The notes: generated by a model from the letters alone, not told the origin. A DNA stretch of 64,000 nt from Candidatus Bathyarchaeota archaeon (GCA_017883615.1 JADGNF010000034.1:1-64000); one strand, 5' to 3'; numbered from the stretch's first letter, positions 28,492 through 36,572 are shown. Numbers and translations are program-made.

Positions 28492-28526
28492 AATTGGTCT
28501 TAAACGGAAAATTTCCGATTTAATGC

Positions 28527-28578
28527 CCGAACTAAGCCGAGAACATCCGCCAAACTCATGAAGAGACTCTACGAAGAC
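28527..28578 (+). pseudogene. Frameshifted remnant of the winged-helix C-terminus of the gene at 29930..30724
   Basis: CCGAACTAAGCCGAGAACATCCGCCAAACTCATGAAGAGACTCTACGAAGA aligns with CCAACTAAGTCGAGAACATACCGCCAGACTCATGAAGAGACTCTATGAAGA near 30571..30620, with a 1-nt deletion breaking the frame. Confidence 0.75.
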
Positions 28579-28591
28579 ATAGATTTGTTGC

Positions 28592-28714
28592 GTCACAGGC
28601 TTCATTCTAGAATCACAGATGCATCACAAAGATGTGACATCATGAAATTCGTGTGAGAATCACGCGTGATTCTACCGTGATTTCGATGTGATTCCTCGTG
28701 AGGGGTGATGTCAC
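28592..28714. repeat. Left GTGAT/ATCAC motif array with 11-bp phasing and an 18-bp perfect palindrome
   Basis: GTGAT at 28666, 28677, 28688 (11-bp steps); AGAATCACGCGTGATTCT palindrome 28656..28673; further ATCACA at 28612 and 28623, TGTGAC at 28633, GTGATGTCAC at 28705. Confidence 0.8.
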
Positions 28715-29115
28715 GATACAAAACCAATAAAAAAAGTCATTGATTGCAATGACCAAAAAATGTTTACAAGGGAGGCTTGGCATGGGAATTCAATTAATGT
28801 TGAAGTGAAACAATTGATGTGAAAACGGCGAAATTAGCACAGCGCTACCTCTTTGTTAACAGAAAGAATGTTAAGAGGCTCTAGACGGGCTATACTACCC
28901 CAGTGTTATATGCTCAAATTGAGGTACTATATCCATTTAAGTCACTAATGCAGCTTTAAATTTAAAAATAATAGATTGTAGAGCGTTTTGTGCGTTTTAA
29001 GGCGTTAATATCCGGTTTTAAGCAGTGATTTTTGATCGAATGTTGTGAAATTCTTTTTAAAGACCTTATAGTATACAAAACTGTATCCATTCAACATGAC
29101 GGAAGGAACGTAAGA

Positions 29116-29595
29116 ATGAAGCTAAAAGACAACGTACAACTGTGGCTAAACGGCGCGTTAAATGATCCTATTGTTAAAATCCTCTCTAAAAACAGCCAAC
29201 TAACGAAAACGCAACTTGAAACACTGCTAATAGACATTTTAGCTGAAAATATGGCCGGTAAACAGTTAAACTACGACGAAAAAGCCAAATTACGCCTAAC
29301 TAAGGCCAAACTAAGCCGCGGTTCCTTCAATAGGACACTACGTCAGTCTAAAGAAAACGTAATAAAATCAATCTACACGGTGCTCCTACTCGGGTATCTA
29401 GGAGTTTTTGAGAGTACAACTCTTGACCCGTACCTTGAAATAGCGAATAAATTGAAGGAGTACATGGAGGCACACAAAGACCTCCCAAACAACCTAGAAG
29501 GTGTAGAGGAACATCTGAAAGTCATAGAACTCATCAGAGATGAGCTAGAAACGAGCCTAAAACGGCTTTCTAGCCCCTCAGAAGATAGTTTGTGA
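29116..29595 (+). CDS. Hypothetical protein, possibly nucleic-acid binding
   Basis: ORF open from 29032; internal Met (MKLKDNVQLWLNGALNDPIVKILSKNSQLTKTQLETLLIDIL) preferred; SRGSFNRTLRQSKENVIKSIYTVLLLGYLG looks HTH-like. Confidence 0.6.
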   Translation: MKLKDNVQLWLNGALNDPIVKILSKNSQLTKTQLETLLIDILAENMAGKQLNYDEKAKLRLTKAKLSRGSFNRTLRQSKENVIKSIYTVLLLGYLGVFESTTLDPYLEIANKLKEYMEAHKDLPNNLEGVEEHLKVIELIRDELETSLKRLSSPSEDSL

Positions 29596-29917
29596 CGTCA
29601 CAAATCACAAAAAAATGCTCAAAATCGATTCAAATCACTAGTGACGAAGCACATCACTAAGGAGTTGAAAAGAACATCAGCTAACTCTTTAATTATAGGA
29701 GATTACGTGGAAATAAACTCAATTCTGAACTATTTTGAAGACCTAAAGTAACATGGCAATATTTAATGAGAATTAAGAAGTTTTGTGATGTGTGACATCA
29801 TAGAACCTGTGACGAAATGAGCGACCATAAACCTTAAATTTCCCATGGATAACTGTGATATGTGATGCAACACCATAAGTCACTTGCAAATCACGGACGA
29901 ATCACGTTAAAATCACA
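29589..29917. repeat. Right GTGAT/ATCAC motif array upstream of the membrane-wHTH gene
   Basis: Palindrome TTTGTGACGTCACAAA 29589..29604; TCACTAGTGA 29635..29644; GTGAT/GTGAC pairs at 29785/29792 and GTGAT pair at 29855/29862; ATCAC at 29890, 29901, 29912 (11-bp steps). Confidence 0.8.
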
Positions 29918-29929
29918 GGGGAAGAAAAA

Positions 29930-30724
29930 ATGGTAGACTTCACGCTAATACTAATAACCGCAATTTCATCCGCCCTTCTTGTAGCAACAACATACGTAGC
30001 AGTCGAATATTACCGACAGCTCCGCAAAGCACAAAAAGAATATGAAAAAGCCAAAGATTTCGTCGAAGACATAGTGCTAAGTTTCAACAGAGAACTCAAA
30101 CGGGAAGCGGAAAAAATAGAAAAAGTATCCTACAAGGTAGAAGTGAGCGCATCAAAAGCCGACTCAGGCCTCGATAAGGCAGAAAGCATTGAAAAAAGAG
30201 TTGCACCTCTCGAAACCCAAATTAGCCAAATCGGCACCCAAGTCGAATCATTAACCAATACCATAGGTGCCCTCTCGGAAGCCAACGCGAAAACCGTTGA
30301 AAAACTATCTAATCTTGAGATCCCCAGTCTTGACGAAAAAATGTACAATATTGAATCAGCTCAGGAAATGCTAAAAACTAAGATTTCAAGCTTGGAGGAA
30401 CAGATGCAAAAGTTTTCCTTCAGCCCAGAAGTGAAATCTGAAAATCCTTTTCCAGTAATGCCAATCAAACGGGATAAAGCCTTAGCAGCGCTGACCGAAA
30501 CCGAGGTGTCAGTTCTGGAATTCCTCTCGACGGAAGGACCGAAAACCGCTCCTGAAATCAAAGAAAAAGTCCAACTAAGTCGAGAACATACCGCCAGACT
30601 CATGAAGAGACTCTATGAAGAAGGTTATCTGGAAAGGGAAACGGGAAAACTACCCTTTAAGTACAGCGTTAAGAAAGAAATGGAAAAACTCCTAAGGAAA
30701 CCCGAAGCGCCAGCTTCGGCATAG
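29930..30724 (+). CDS. Membrane-anchored coiled-coil protein with C-terminal winged helix (MarR/TrmB-like)
   Basis: N-terminal TM MVDFTLILITAISSALLVATTYVAV, long heptad-like coil, then LTETEVSVLEFLSTEGPKTAPEIKEKVQLSREHTARLMKRLYEEGYLERETGKLPFKYSV. Confidence 0.8.
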   Translation: MVDFTLILITAISSALLVATTYVAVEYYRQLRKAQKEYEKAKDFVEDIVLSFNRELKREAEKIEKVSYKVEVSASKADSGLDKAESIEKRVAPLETQISQIGTQVESLTNTIGALSEANAKTVEKLSNLEIPSLDEKMYNIESAQEMLKTKISSLEEQMQKFSFSPEVKSENPFPVMPIKRDKALAALTETEVSVLEFLSTEGPKTAPEIKEKVQLSREHTARLMKRLYEEGYLERETGKLPFKYSVKKEMEKLLRKPEAPASA

Positions 30725-30838
30725 ATTACTTGGGAAAAAAATCAGCCTGCTTGATTTGATTAACGGGTTATAGCTGATGGCAGGCAACCCATCAAAATGC
30801 AAAAGTCATCGCGGCTTCGCTATAGTCTCTATCTTTGG

Positions 30839-31270
30839 CTATTTTAGTTTCTGCTTTATGATCGCTTGCGGAGTCGCTGTAGAAATCTTGTATTTCAAAT
30901 CATTGGCGCCGCCATTTCTGAGAAGGAACCCTTTGCCTGCAAGCCGCGAAAGGTAAGTTGAAACTGTGCTCAAACTAATCGGCTCCTTAAGCTCCTGCTC
31001 ATAATAGGATTGGATTTCCTTAGATGAAAACCACACCATGGGAAAGTTTTTCAGGATAACCCCTCGAACCTTATCAAATCTGGAAGAGCTACCAACTGAA
31101 TTCACGTTTCCCCCGCCGGGGCTCGGGTTTTCTCCCGGCATGCCGCCGAGCAATTCCACAAGGTCCAGAAGACGCATAGCTTTATCCCTAGTAATTTGCC
31201 CTTCGAATGCGACAGTGTATCGGTTACCTTCACTGTCGAATAGCTCCACACGCATCTTCCGAGCAGGCAT
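30839..31270 (-). CDS. Winged-helix DNA-binding protein next to the putative origin
   Basis: IQSYYEQELKEPISLSTVSTYLSRLAGKGFLLRNGGANDLKYKIS. Confidence 0.75.
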   Translation of the reverse strand: MPARKMRVELFDSEGNRYTVAFEGQITRDKAMRLLDLVELLGGMPGENPSPGGGNVNSVGSSSRFDKVRGVILKNFPMVWFSSKEIQSYYEQELKEPISLSTVSTYLSRLAGKGFLLRNGGANDLKYKISTATPQAIIKQKLK

Positions 31271-31290
31271 CTAGGGTGTACACCTTAAGG

Positions 31291-31661
31291 GTTCACAACT
31301 TTACACTTCACATCTTATAGCTGTTATGGTGAAACAAGTCAATGTGAAAAGCCCAATTTCAACCTATTTTCATCAATAGACTGAAATGTGTAGATAATAT
31401 GGAATTACAGGCTTCACATGTTTTCAAACTTGCAAAATCTATTCAAGACCAGCTTGGTTTTGTATCTCCAGTAGAAGCGTAGGGGTGTGAGGTTCACTGT
31501 AAACAAGCAAGATTATGCCATTTTTGGATAAAACTGGCGAATTAACGAACAGTTTTCTAGCTAACTTCACATGTCGTTCACAATAATGTGAACCAAAGTC
31601 ACAAACCAAGACAAATTTGATAATTGATGGTCCCTACGAAAGAACTCTTCATAGTATCACA
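31291..31661. repeat. TTCACA/TGTGAA motif cluster including dyad GTTCACA-N4-TGTGAAC
   Basis: TTCACA at 31292, 31307, 31413, 31566, 31577 (the last two 11 bp apart); TGTGAA at 31343 and 31587; dyad 31576..31593. Confidence 0.75.
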
Positions 31662-32069
31662 ATTTCCAGAAACAAATTTTCAACGTTAGGATCCCCATGA
31701 TTTCTCAAATATTCACGACAAAAAGGGACACCCCTTCATTTCCTCTCCAACACTTTTTTGCAAGCAGTCACTTGACAAGGTCAGAAAAATATTTTACAGT
31801 TTACTTATCTAAAATCTTTAACAATCATTATTAATATAGTTCAAAATATATAACCACGCAGAGTATTCTTCTTCTATAACATAATCTTACATATTCTCGC
31901 AAGAGTATTAAAGAGTTGAATAGAGTTCCAGTAGAAATTTTGGGGTGTGCCTCTTGAGACTTAATCGGTAACTGCGAAGCATTTCCATCTGGTTTTAGGA
32001 TTGTTAAGCTCTCCAACTATTTTTTTGTACTGTAGTCTTTATCTGTTCCACGCGAAATAACGGTGTTAC
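31466..32069. promoter_or_regulatory. Putative chromosomal replication origin (oriC) with ORB-like elements and AT-rich core
   Basis: CTCCAGTAGAAGCGTAGGGGTGTG 31466..31489; TTCCAGTAGAAATTTTGGGGTGTG 31926..31949; inverted matches 31727..31750 and (weaker) 31689..31712; degenerate TTCCACGCGAAATAACGGTGTT from 32046; AT-rich about 31780..31890; orc1/cdc6 starts at 32079. Confidence 0.75.
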
Positions 32070-32078
32070 CTCTGGGAA

Positions 32079-33326
32079 ATGATGACATTGGGCAACCCAA
32101 ACATACTTGACGACGTGTTCGAAAAATTCATAAACGAAGCTAAACTCTTCAAAGACCGAGAAGTCTTAAGGCATGACTATTTGCCCGAGAAGCTTCCCCA
32201 TCGCGAAGAACAAATCCGGCTACTTGGCCAGGTGGTTGCTCCGGTTCTGAAAGATTCTCGTTGCTCTAACATTTTCATATACGGAAAGACCGGAACAGGA
32301 AAAACCGCAGTAACAAAATTTGTTGTTAGCCATCTGGAATCCAAAGCTAAGGAGTACGGTGCACCGGTAAAGTTTTGCTACATAAACTGTCGAATGACCG
32401 GATCGGAGTACCGAGTTTTCGCAAGCTTGAGCCAAAGTCTTGGCTTATCCATTCCCTTTACTGGTTTGTCTGTGGGTGAAGTATTTGACAGATTCCAAGC
32501 AGGATTGGATAGCACCCGAACCCTTTTCATTATTATTCTAGACGAAATAGACGCTTTAATTAAAGACCGAGGCGACGGAATTCTCTATGAGTTAACTCGG
32601 ATAAACGAATCTTTGCATAAGAGCAAAGTTGCCCTCATCGGAATATCCAACGACTTGCGACTAAAAGAGTTCCTTGATCCACGTGTTTTCAGTTCCTTAA
32701 GCGAGGAAGAAATGGTCTTCAGACCGTACGACGCAGGCGAGCTCCGAAACATCTTGCAGGAAAGGTCGAGACTTGGCTTTTTTGAGGGGGTTCTTTCGGA
32801 AGCCGCGTTGAGTATCTGTTCTGCGTTAGCCGCTGCGGAGCATGGGGACGCGCGGCGTGCTTTAGATCTTTTGCGCGTTGCTGGAGAAGTGGCGGAGCGG
32901 CAAGGTTCCGCGACTATAACGGAAGAACATGTTCGAGAAGCAGAAAAACACATCGAACACAATAAGGTAGTCGAAGCCCTGAAGAACTCAACGTTGCACT
33001 CCAAGCTTGTGCTGCTAAGCGTGTATCATCTAGGTAAAGCATGCAGCGGTAGCGCGACCACCGGCGAAATCTATGATGTCTACAATGAGCTTTGCGGAGA
33101 ACTGGGCGTGAGCATGCTTACTCAAAGGCGACTTGGAACCTTGATTAACGAACTTGACGCGATGGGACTTCTAAACTCAAAAGTCGTGAGCATGGGCAGA
33201 TACGGACGCACAAAAAAGATACGCTTAGAAATCGCGCGCTCACTCATCCAAGATGTCTTCGCAACTGACGGAAGGCTCGGGCATTTAATGGAATATACAC
33301 CCAAGCTTGTCTCCAAAAAACAATAG
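32079..33326 (+). CDS. cdc6: Orc1/Cdc6 replication initiator
   Basis: NIFIYGKTGTGKTAVTKFV Walker A; LFIIILDEIDALI Walker B; C-terminal winged helix. Confidence 0.97.
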   Translation: MMTLGNPNILDDVFEKFINEAKLFKDREVLRHDYLPEKLPHREEQIRLLGQVVAPVLKDSRCSNIFIYGKTGTGKTAVTKFVVSHLESKAKEYGAPVKFCYINCRMTGSEYRVFASLSQSLGLSIPFTGLSVGEVFDRFQAGLDSTRTLFIIILDEIDALIKDRGDGILYELTRINESLHKSKVALIGISNDLRLKEFLDPRVFSSLSEEEMVFRPYDAGELRNILQERSRLGFFEGVLSEAALSICSALAAAEHGDARRALDLLRVAGEVAERQGSATITEEHVREAEKHIEHNKVVEALKNSTLHSKLVLLSVYHLGKACSGSATTGEIYDVYNELCGELGVSMLTQRRLGTLINELDAMGLLNSKVVSMGRYGRTKKIRLEIARSLIQDVFATDGRLGHLMEYTPKLVSKKQ

Positions 33327-36442: not shown

Positions 36443-36572
36443 GCCGGGGTGGCGGAGTGGTTATCGCGCTGGCCTCGAGATCCAAACTTGCACAGAGAAG
36501 GGCCGTGCCAAAATGGGCAAGCCAGCCAGTGGGCCTTGGCCCGCAGGGGTTCGAGTCCCTTCCCCGGCGCCA
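36443..36572 (+). tRNA. tRNA-Ser(CGA) with 44-nt intron; CCA encoded
   Basis: Acceptor GCCGGGG/CCCCGGC, anticodon loop CTCGAGA, long variable arm GGGCCTTGGCCC, T-loop GGGGTTCGAGTCCC; proposed intron 36480..36523 after position 37. Confidence 0.9.

Follow-up and report, generated by a model that had tools for sequence, protein, structure and literature searches.

A conserved origin-side module of phased GTGA/TCAC arrays and a predicted membrane-anchored winged-helix protein in Bathyarchaeia

Whether phased arrays of short motifs beside an archaeal origin merely regulate the adjoining gene, or form a chromosomal locus in their own right, is the question raised by a 64,000-bp stretch of DNA (hereafter, the window) from Candidatus Bathyarchaeota archaeon (GCA_017883615.1 JADGNF010000034.1:1-64000), part of a 1.73-Mb metagenome-assembled genome (MAG; G000:C72). 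Two dense GTGA/TCAC arrays flank a small gene, unk; the second array leads into a gene for a predicted transmembrane (TM) protein with a C-terminal winged helix, TMwH, which is followed by a second winged-helix gene, wH2, an origin-like gap and orc1/cdc6 (unk, TMwH and wH2 are labels coined in this analysis). The explanation ranked first, tentatively and with a probability of roughly 0.45, is a membrane-tethered protein–DNA array that anchors, segregates or controls the origin-proximal region. On this view the C-terminal winged helix of TMwH would bind the GTGA arrays, which would act in cis as a chromosomal locus, and the N-terminal TM segment and coiled coil of this protein would keep the protein–DNA array at the membrane, thereby anchoring, segregating or fixing in place the DNA near the origin. 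TMwH would probably also control its own promoter, where one array sits in most genomes, and wH2 would be a separate origin factor which, in most Bathyarchaeia, binds a TTCACA array beside the origin recognition boxes (ORBs). We infer the binding, the position of this DNA at the membrane and its role in the cell from the sequence comparisons that follow.

The dense GTGAT/ATCAC arrays that an earlier note on this DNA had claimed around the small gene are present and exceed the expectation from dinucleotide shuffles. The left array (28590-28720) contains seven GTGAT/ATCAC motifs, against a mean of 1.26 and a maximum of 5 in 2000 shuffles, with at most three in stretches of this size elsewhere in the window; the right array (29580-29925) contains nine, against a mean of 1.22 and a maximum of 7. 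Within the origin-like gap (31285-31600), seven TTCACA/TGTGAA motifs compare with a mean of 0.50 and a maximum of 3, and all three arrays top every same-sized stretch elsewhere in the window. The helical phasing of the half-sites is real: exact 11-bp steps separate the TCAC motifs at 29880, 29891, 29902 and 29913 and the GTGA motifs at 28666, 28677 and 28688, and across 38 genomes of the family the spacings between same-strand GTGA or TCAC motifs show sharp peaks at 7, 10-11 and 21-22 bp, while those from GTGA to TCAC peak at 6 and 13 bp. The core element of the arrays is the palindrome GTGAYRTCAC, located at an identical offset to the unk stop codon in 62 of 91 loci and within +80 in 73 of them. 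This palindrome is scarce, with three sites in the 1.73-Mb genome, two of them inside the module, a distribution that leaves a genome-wide GTGAYRTCAC regulon unsupported in the window's genome; it is concentrated in the module in other genomes too.

The earlier note had staked its reading on conservation in relatives, and that comparison has now been run: the neighbourhood and the arrays are kept family-wide, and most of the class has the palindrome. In 40 further genomes of the family (23 genera, including the window's own), the genes in and around the module keep their order and strands, apart from places where a contig ends and from a small number of flank genes that are missing, and some family genomes carry an insertion of about 2.5 kb between TMwH and wH2. 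TMwH was detected in 80 of the family's 91 genomes (in 52 of the 53 good ones). The right array, together with a second array hundreds of base pairs upstream of unk, occurs in every family genome examined. The gap between wH2 and cdc6 measures 725-822 bp where the contig covers it (2.2 kb in one genome), holds at least four TTCACA/TGTGAA motifs in every family genome so covered, and aligns across the family, the conserved columns being the ORB and TTCACA blocks. Class-wide, unk has been found in 213, TMwH in 203 and wH2 in 182 of 257 genomes. The association of these genes is phylum-wide: unk occurs in 129 of 398 genomes at that level, the unk-TMwH-wH2-cdc6 set stands together outside the class in L159, L160, L169, L170 and L171, and the protein families extend to Nitrososphaeria-like genomes.

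The architecture that had been proposed for TMwH, a TM segment, a coil and a C-terminal winged helix, also holds. The 264-aa protein has a hydrophobic N-terminus, matches to tropomyosin and chemotaxis-receptor coils, and a MarR/TrmB-type winged helix-turn-helix (wHTH) that scores over the curated cut-offs (MarR, 32.6 bits vs 24.6; TrmB, 29 vs 25.6). A TM segment is predicted by hydropathy in the TMwH of 81 of 84 loci, and the recognition helix, LSREHTARLMK, is nearly invariant in the family, relatives mostly having [ST]REH. By eye, a gene resembling an XRE-type helix-turn-helix plus CBS-domain regulator stands before TMwH, or before its expected place, in L142, L200, L202, L205 and L171.

Which protein would bind the GTGA sites is addressed by the pattern of co-occurrence. 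The palindrome is found in 72 of the 73 tallied Bathyarchaeial genomes with TMwH (L126 being the exception) and is absent in 12 of the 15 genomes where TMwH was not found, all of which have unk. In particular, families f11, f12, f13 and f15 keep unk and have no TMwH by profile search, apart from a weak match in G116, and all 12 of their readable genomes are without the palindrome. The palindrome in genomes with no TMwH found is limited to G161, whose contig stops right after unk, G216 and G226. On the unk tree, which is poorly settled, the loss of TMwH takes about three changes (bootstrap 2-3), and the co-inheritance of TMwH and palindrome is best read as a correlation from few events. Binding of the GTGA sites by unk rather than TMwH would suit the arrays on both sides of unk and the palindrome overlapping its stop codon, but it is disfavoured because unk stays, in those 12 genomes, where TMwH and the palindrome are gone. 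This protein also has a conserved dyad of its own and a poor AlphaFold model (mean predicted local distance difference test score, pLDDT, 58.6) whose fold search gave no useful match, and a role for it as the binder is very improbable. Searches with unk gave no match in Pfam or PHROG, none above the cut-off in NCBIfam and no meaningful one in the PDB. Its dyad, TATAC-N4..8-GTAT (GTATACAAAANTGTATCC), lies upstream of the gene in 74 of 91 loci, six of them outside the class, and may be unk's own operator; as coding sequence it is out, since the spacing between dyad and ATG does not keep to multiples of three across loci and an outgroup carries an in-frame stop.

The conservative alternative is autoregulation only, with a membrane-bound TMwH controlling its own gene, and perhaps unk, and the oriC neighbourhood as incidental synteny. 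This explanation is ranked second, and as a complete account it appears rather unlikely. The right array has sites on both sides of a conserved TATA-like element, and one of its composite elements is near the expected transcription start; a MarR/TrmB-type wHTH would suit such a function; and in some lineages the sites are separated from TMwH by the XRE-CBS-like gene, in an operon-like arrangement. Nevertheless, there are many more sites than in a usual operator, the left array lies away from the TMwH promoter, hundreds of base pairs upstream of unk in every family genome, and the sites are placed differently where a hypF gene intervenes. In L139, L143, L196, L197, L198 and L203 (families f14, f23 and f27), hypF is found on the minus strand between unk and TMwH. 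In the five genomes read closely, hypF itself contains the GTGA cluster, roughly at +580 and +890 to +990 relative to the unk stop codon, and the 200 bp before TMwH in five hypF-bearing genomes contain only 0-3 GTGA/TCAC motifs. GTGAYRTCAY is present in all six embedded hypF genes vs none of the 25 hypF genes elsewhere in relatives, and gene-wide GTGA/TCAC counts are above those of synonymous-codon shuffles in five of the six (0-3 of 300 shuffles reach the count). The 25 control genes average 14.8 motifs vs 15.8 expected, although L219 and L223 are also high. This enrichment over the synonymous expectation, the strongest argument for the array as a cis-locus, points to selection on DNA sites within coding hypF, which would be an unusual case of its kind. 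The hypF-embedded sites, together with the co-occurrence of TMwH and palindrome where unk is kept, favour a cis-acting locus bound by TMwH over autoregulation alone, and the alternative is weakened rather than removed.

Several observations weigh against such a locus, or against its tie to the membrane or to the origin. The embedded hypF genes may go back to a common ancestor and to few insertions; for the L197 gene, 30 of 300 shuffles reach the count, which is not significant gene-wide, the L143 gene is not significant in the sub-region, and the embedded sites may act on TMwH as distant regulatory elements. The losses of TMwH are few independent events in genomes that are MAGs, and in G216 and G226 the palindrome stands with no TMwH found. 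The TMwH proteins of L177 (f10), L143 (f14) and L171 (f32) are without a predicted TM segment, and L177 and L143 keep the palindrome after unk all the same. In most genomes, moreover, the right array covers TMwH's own promoter. Lastly, in families f25-f27 (G226, G228, G229 and G230-G253), wH2 and a close cdc6 are mostly missing together, the distant cdc6 matches being at about 30% identity, yet TMwH and the palindrome are kept; the exception, G239, keeps a close cdc6 (47%) and matches wH2 weakly. The link of the GTGA sites and TMwH to this origin is, on these genomes, not obligatory. Conversely, unk and wH2 are retained in families f11, f12, f13 and f15, and so is cdc6 where it was looked at. 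The single origin-linked system that the earlier note had proposed is thus upheld as a conserved origin-side module but not as one origin-dependent unit, since it has two separable parts.

The same families bear on a further explanation, replication-control iterons, by which the arrays would set the timing of initiation by titrating or handcuffing the origin, and TMwH would report the state of the membrane. The ORBs, the AT-rich stretch and cdc6 are adjacent, and the palindrome is conserved class-wide; however, because f25-f27 keep TMwH and the sites mostly without wH2 or a matching cdc6, the array does not behave as initiator iterons for this origin, and the iteron explanation is improbable. 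The locus itself is likely a chromosome origin: an orc1/cdc6 gene is adjacent, and ORBs in both orientations lie around an AT-rich element, as in Orc1/Cdc6-type origins. The ORB pattern has three matches in total in the 64 kb, all in the origin gap, with 0.29 expected. GC skew around the locus gave no clear origin signal. A single origin has been recorded for a relative, Nitrosopumilus maritimus (PMC5333045, Table 1). A second Cdc6-type gene is found in the window's genome, on another contig (G000:C34:24394-24657).

With regard to the second winged-helix gene (143 aa), the origin gap, the TTCACA array and the ORBs described earlier are borne out, and the wHTH is assigned through a weak sequence match and a model (pLDDT 70.8) whose fold search matched generic wHTH only (best E 2.6e-3). 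The position of wH2 would fit a separate origin factor, because it adjoins cdc6 and because G211, where no wH2 was found, has a short cdc6 gap with ORB-like elements and without TTCACA. The link of wH2 to TTCACA seems loose, and a strict tie is not claimed: G212 has wH2, yet the 900 bp in which motifs were counted contain no TTCAC, and TTCACA/TGTGAA is missing from three outgroup loci that have wH2. In L159, L160, L169 and L170, outside Bathyarchaeia, the wH2-cdc6 gap contains TGGAAATAAAGGGGT-like ORBs, many GTTAA/TTAAC and almost no TTCACA, and the specificity of wH2 may have changed in these genomes. As a partner of the TTCACA boxes, wH2 would be a second, non-initiator component of the origin in a large class of uncultured archaea.

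Known systems resemble the module in part. RacA of Bacillus subtilis has an N-terminal wHTH and a coiled coil but no TM helix; it binds inverted repeats that are dispersed and works together with DivIVA during sporulation. RacA and TMwH share a wHTH with a coiled coil, repeats clustered near oriC and an envelope tether (proposed for TMwH), whereas TMwH differs in its C-terminal wHTH, its N-terminal TM segment and a single compact, helically phased cluster. TubR, acting on tubC in type III plasmid partition, is a soluble wHTH protein that requires the tubulin-like TubZ; like TMwH, it pairs a wHTH protein with short phased repeats adjoining its own gene. Neither in the neighbourhood of the module nor in the 20 proteins that were scanned (a subset of the window's open reading frames) was a TubZ/FtsZ-like GTPase detected; the same set, with the rest of the genome not searched, yielded no ParA/SegA Walker ATPase or ParB. 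AspA, of the AspA-ParBA system of Sulfolobus pNOB8 (PMC5120986), is an archaeal wHTH protein nucleating on a centromere, and it appears among the weak fold matches of wH2, a fold-level likeness below significance. SegAB of Saccharolobus (PMC5120986) is an archaeal chromosome system whose genes are preceded by palindromes, where the same question of centromere or operator arises; it differs in that SegA is a ParA-type ATPase, of which the window scan gave no example, and SegB is unrelated by the tests made. For wH2, UBP, which recognizes ucm at Sulfolobus oriC1 (PMC12141716), offers the case of a non-initiator protein with a defined motif in an archaeal origin, but it is a beta-hairpin saddle with one origin motif and >300 genomic sites, unlike a winged helix with a multi-copy origin array. 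WhiP at Sulfolobus oriC3 (PMC4010727) is likewise a winged-helix protein encoded next to an archaeal origin, although it is the initiator of an ORB-less origin and wH2 is instead paired with cdc6 and ORBs.

The appearance of centromeres on archaeal chromosomes is listed as an open question (PMC5120986), and the locus would be a defined centromere candidate, with GTGAYRTCAC and phased half-sites, a co-inherited candidate binder and natural losses to compare. It is possible, though on balance doubtful, that it serves archaeal chromosomes as a centromere or as an anchor for the origin, through an integral-membrane protein whose winged helix sits on a compact, helically phased array, an arrangement conserved throughout Bathyarchaeia and with related gene sets in Nitrososphaeria-like genomes. 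From the earlier proposal that the module tethers, segregates or regulates the origin, the conserved module is retained, and tethering, segregation and binding keep the standing of predictions. No description of the module was found in the literature searched, outside which most subscription journals lie, and its listing as a candidate undescribed system is consistent with that search.

The features are collected in Table 1. Along the window, the gene order is DNA polymerase D (PolD) large subunit (-), zinc protein (-), nadE (+), nitrilase (+), left array, unk (+), right array, TMwH (+), wH2 (-), origin-like gap with the TTCACA array, ORBs and AT-rich stretch, orc1/cdc6 (+), PolD small subunit (-) and PhoU-like (+); the names of the flank genes, except cdc6, were assigned by reading the sequences.

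Table 1. Positions, strands and characteristics of the module's features in the window.
Feature	Position	Strand	Remarks
48-bp near copy of TMwH recognition-helix coding DNA (30573-30621)	28530..28577	+	92% over 49 bp; noncoding; immediately left of left array
Left GTGA/TCAC array	28593..28714		12 half-sites; ends in palindrome GTGATGTCAC (28705-28714)
GTATACAAAACTGTATCC dyad upstream of unk	29071..29088	+	sole match in window; missed by the earlier note
unk, 159-aa uncharacterised protein family	29116..29595	+	between the two GTGA arrays
Right GTGA/TCAC array	29592..29916		15 half-sites; composite elements at 29592, 29785 and 29855; four TCAC from 29880 in 11-bp steps
Palindrome GTGACGTCAC	29592..29601		overlaps TGA stop codon of unk; missed by the earlier note
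ACCATAAACCTTAAATTTCC, TFB-recognition-element (BRE)/TATA-like element of TMwH gene	29824..29843	+	conserved in alignment consensus; putative promoter
TMwH, 264 aa: N-terminal TM, coiled coil, C-terminal MarR-like wHTH	29930..30724	+	profile matches, hydropathy
wH2, 143 aa, putative C-terminal winged helix	30839..31270	-	weak sequence match and model
TTCAC/GTGAA array	31292..31592		over wH2 promoter side and left half of origin
ORB-like element TCCAGTAGAAGCGTAGGGGTG	31467..31487	+	exact to pattern
ORB-like element	31729..31749	-	3 mismatches to pattern; reverse orientation
AT-rich (76%) candidate unwinding element	31780..31900		between inverted ORBs
ORB-like element TCCAGTAGAAATTTTGGGGTG	31927..31947	+	exact to pattern
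orc1/cdc6	32079..33326	+	NCBIfam NF001625 over cut-off, E 9e-151

The 48-bp near copy, also missed by the earlier note, is present in the window's genome only, among the loci compared, and suggests a recent partial duplication. As it adjoins the left array, the arrays might be taken for remnants of a mobile element or duplication; this is scarcely credible, given that the copy is confined to this genome and the arrays are family-wide at conserved positions. Elsewhere in the window, a tRNA match at 36443-36569 spans 127 bp, and the tRNA gene probably contains an intron.

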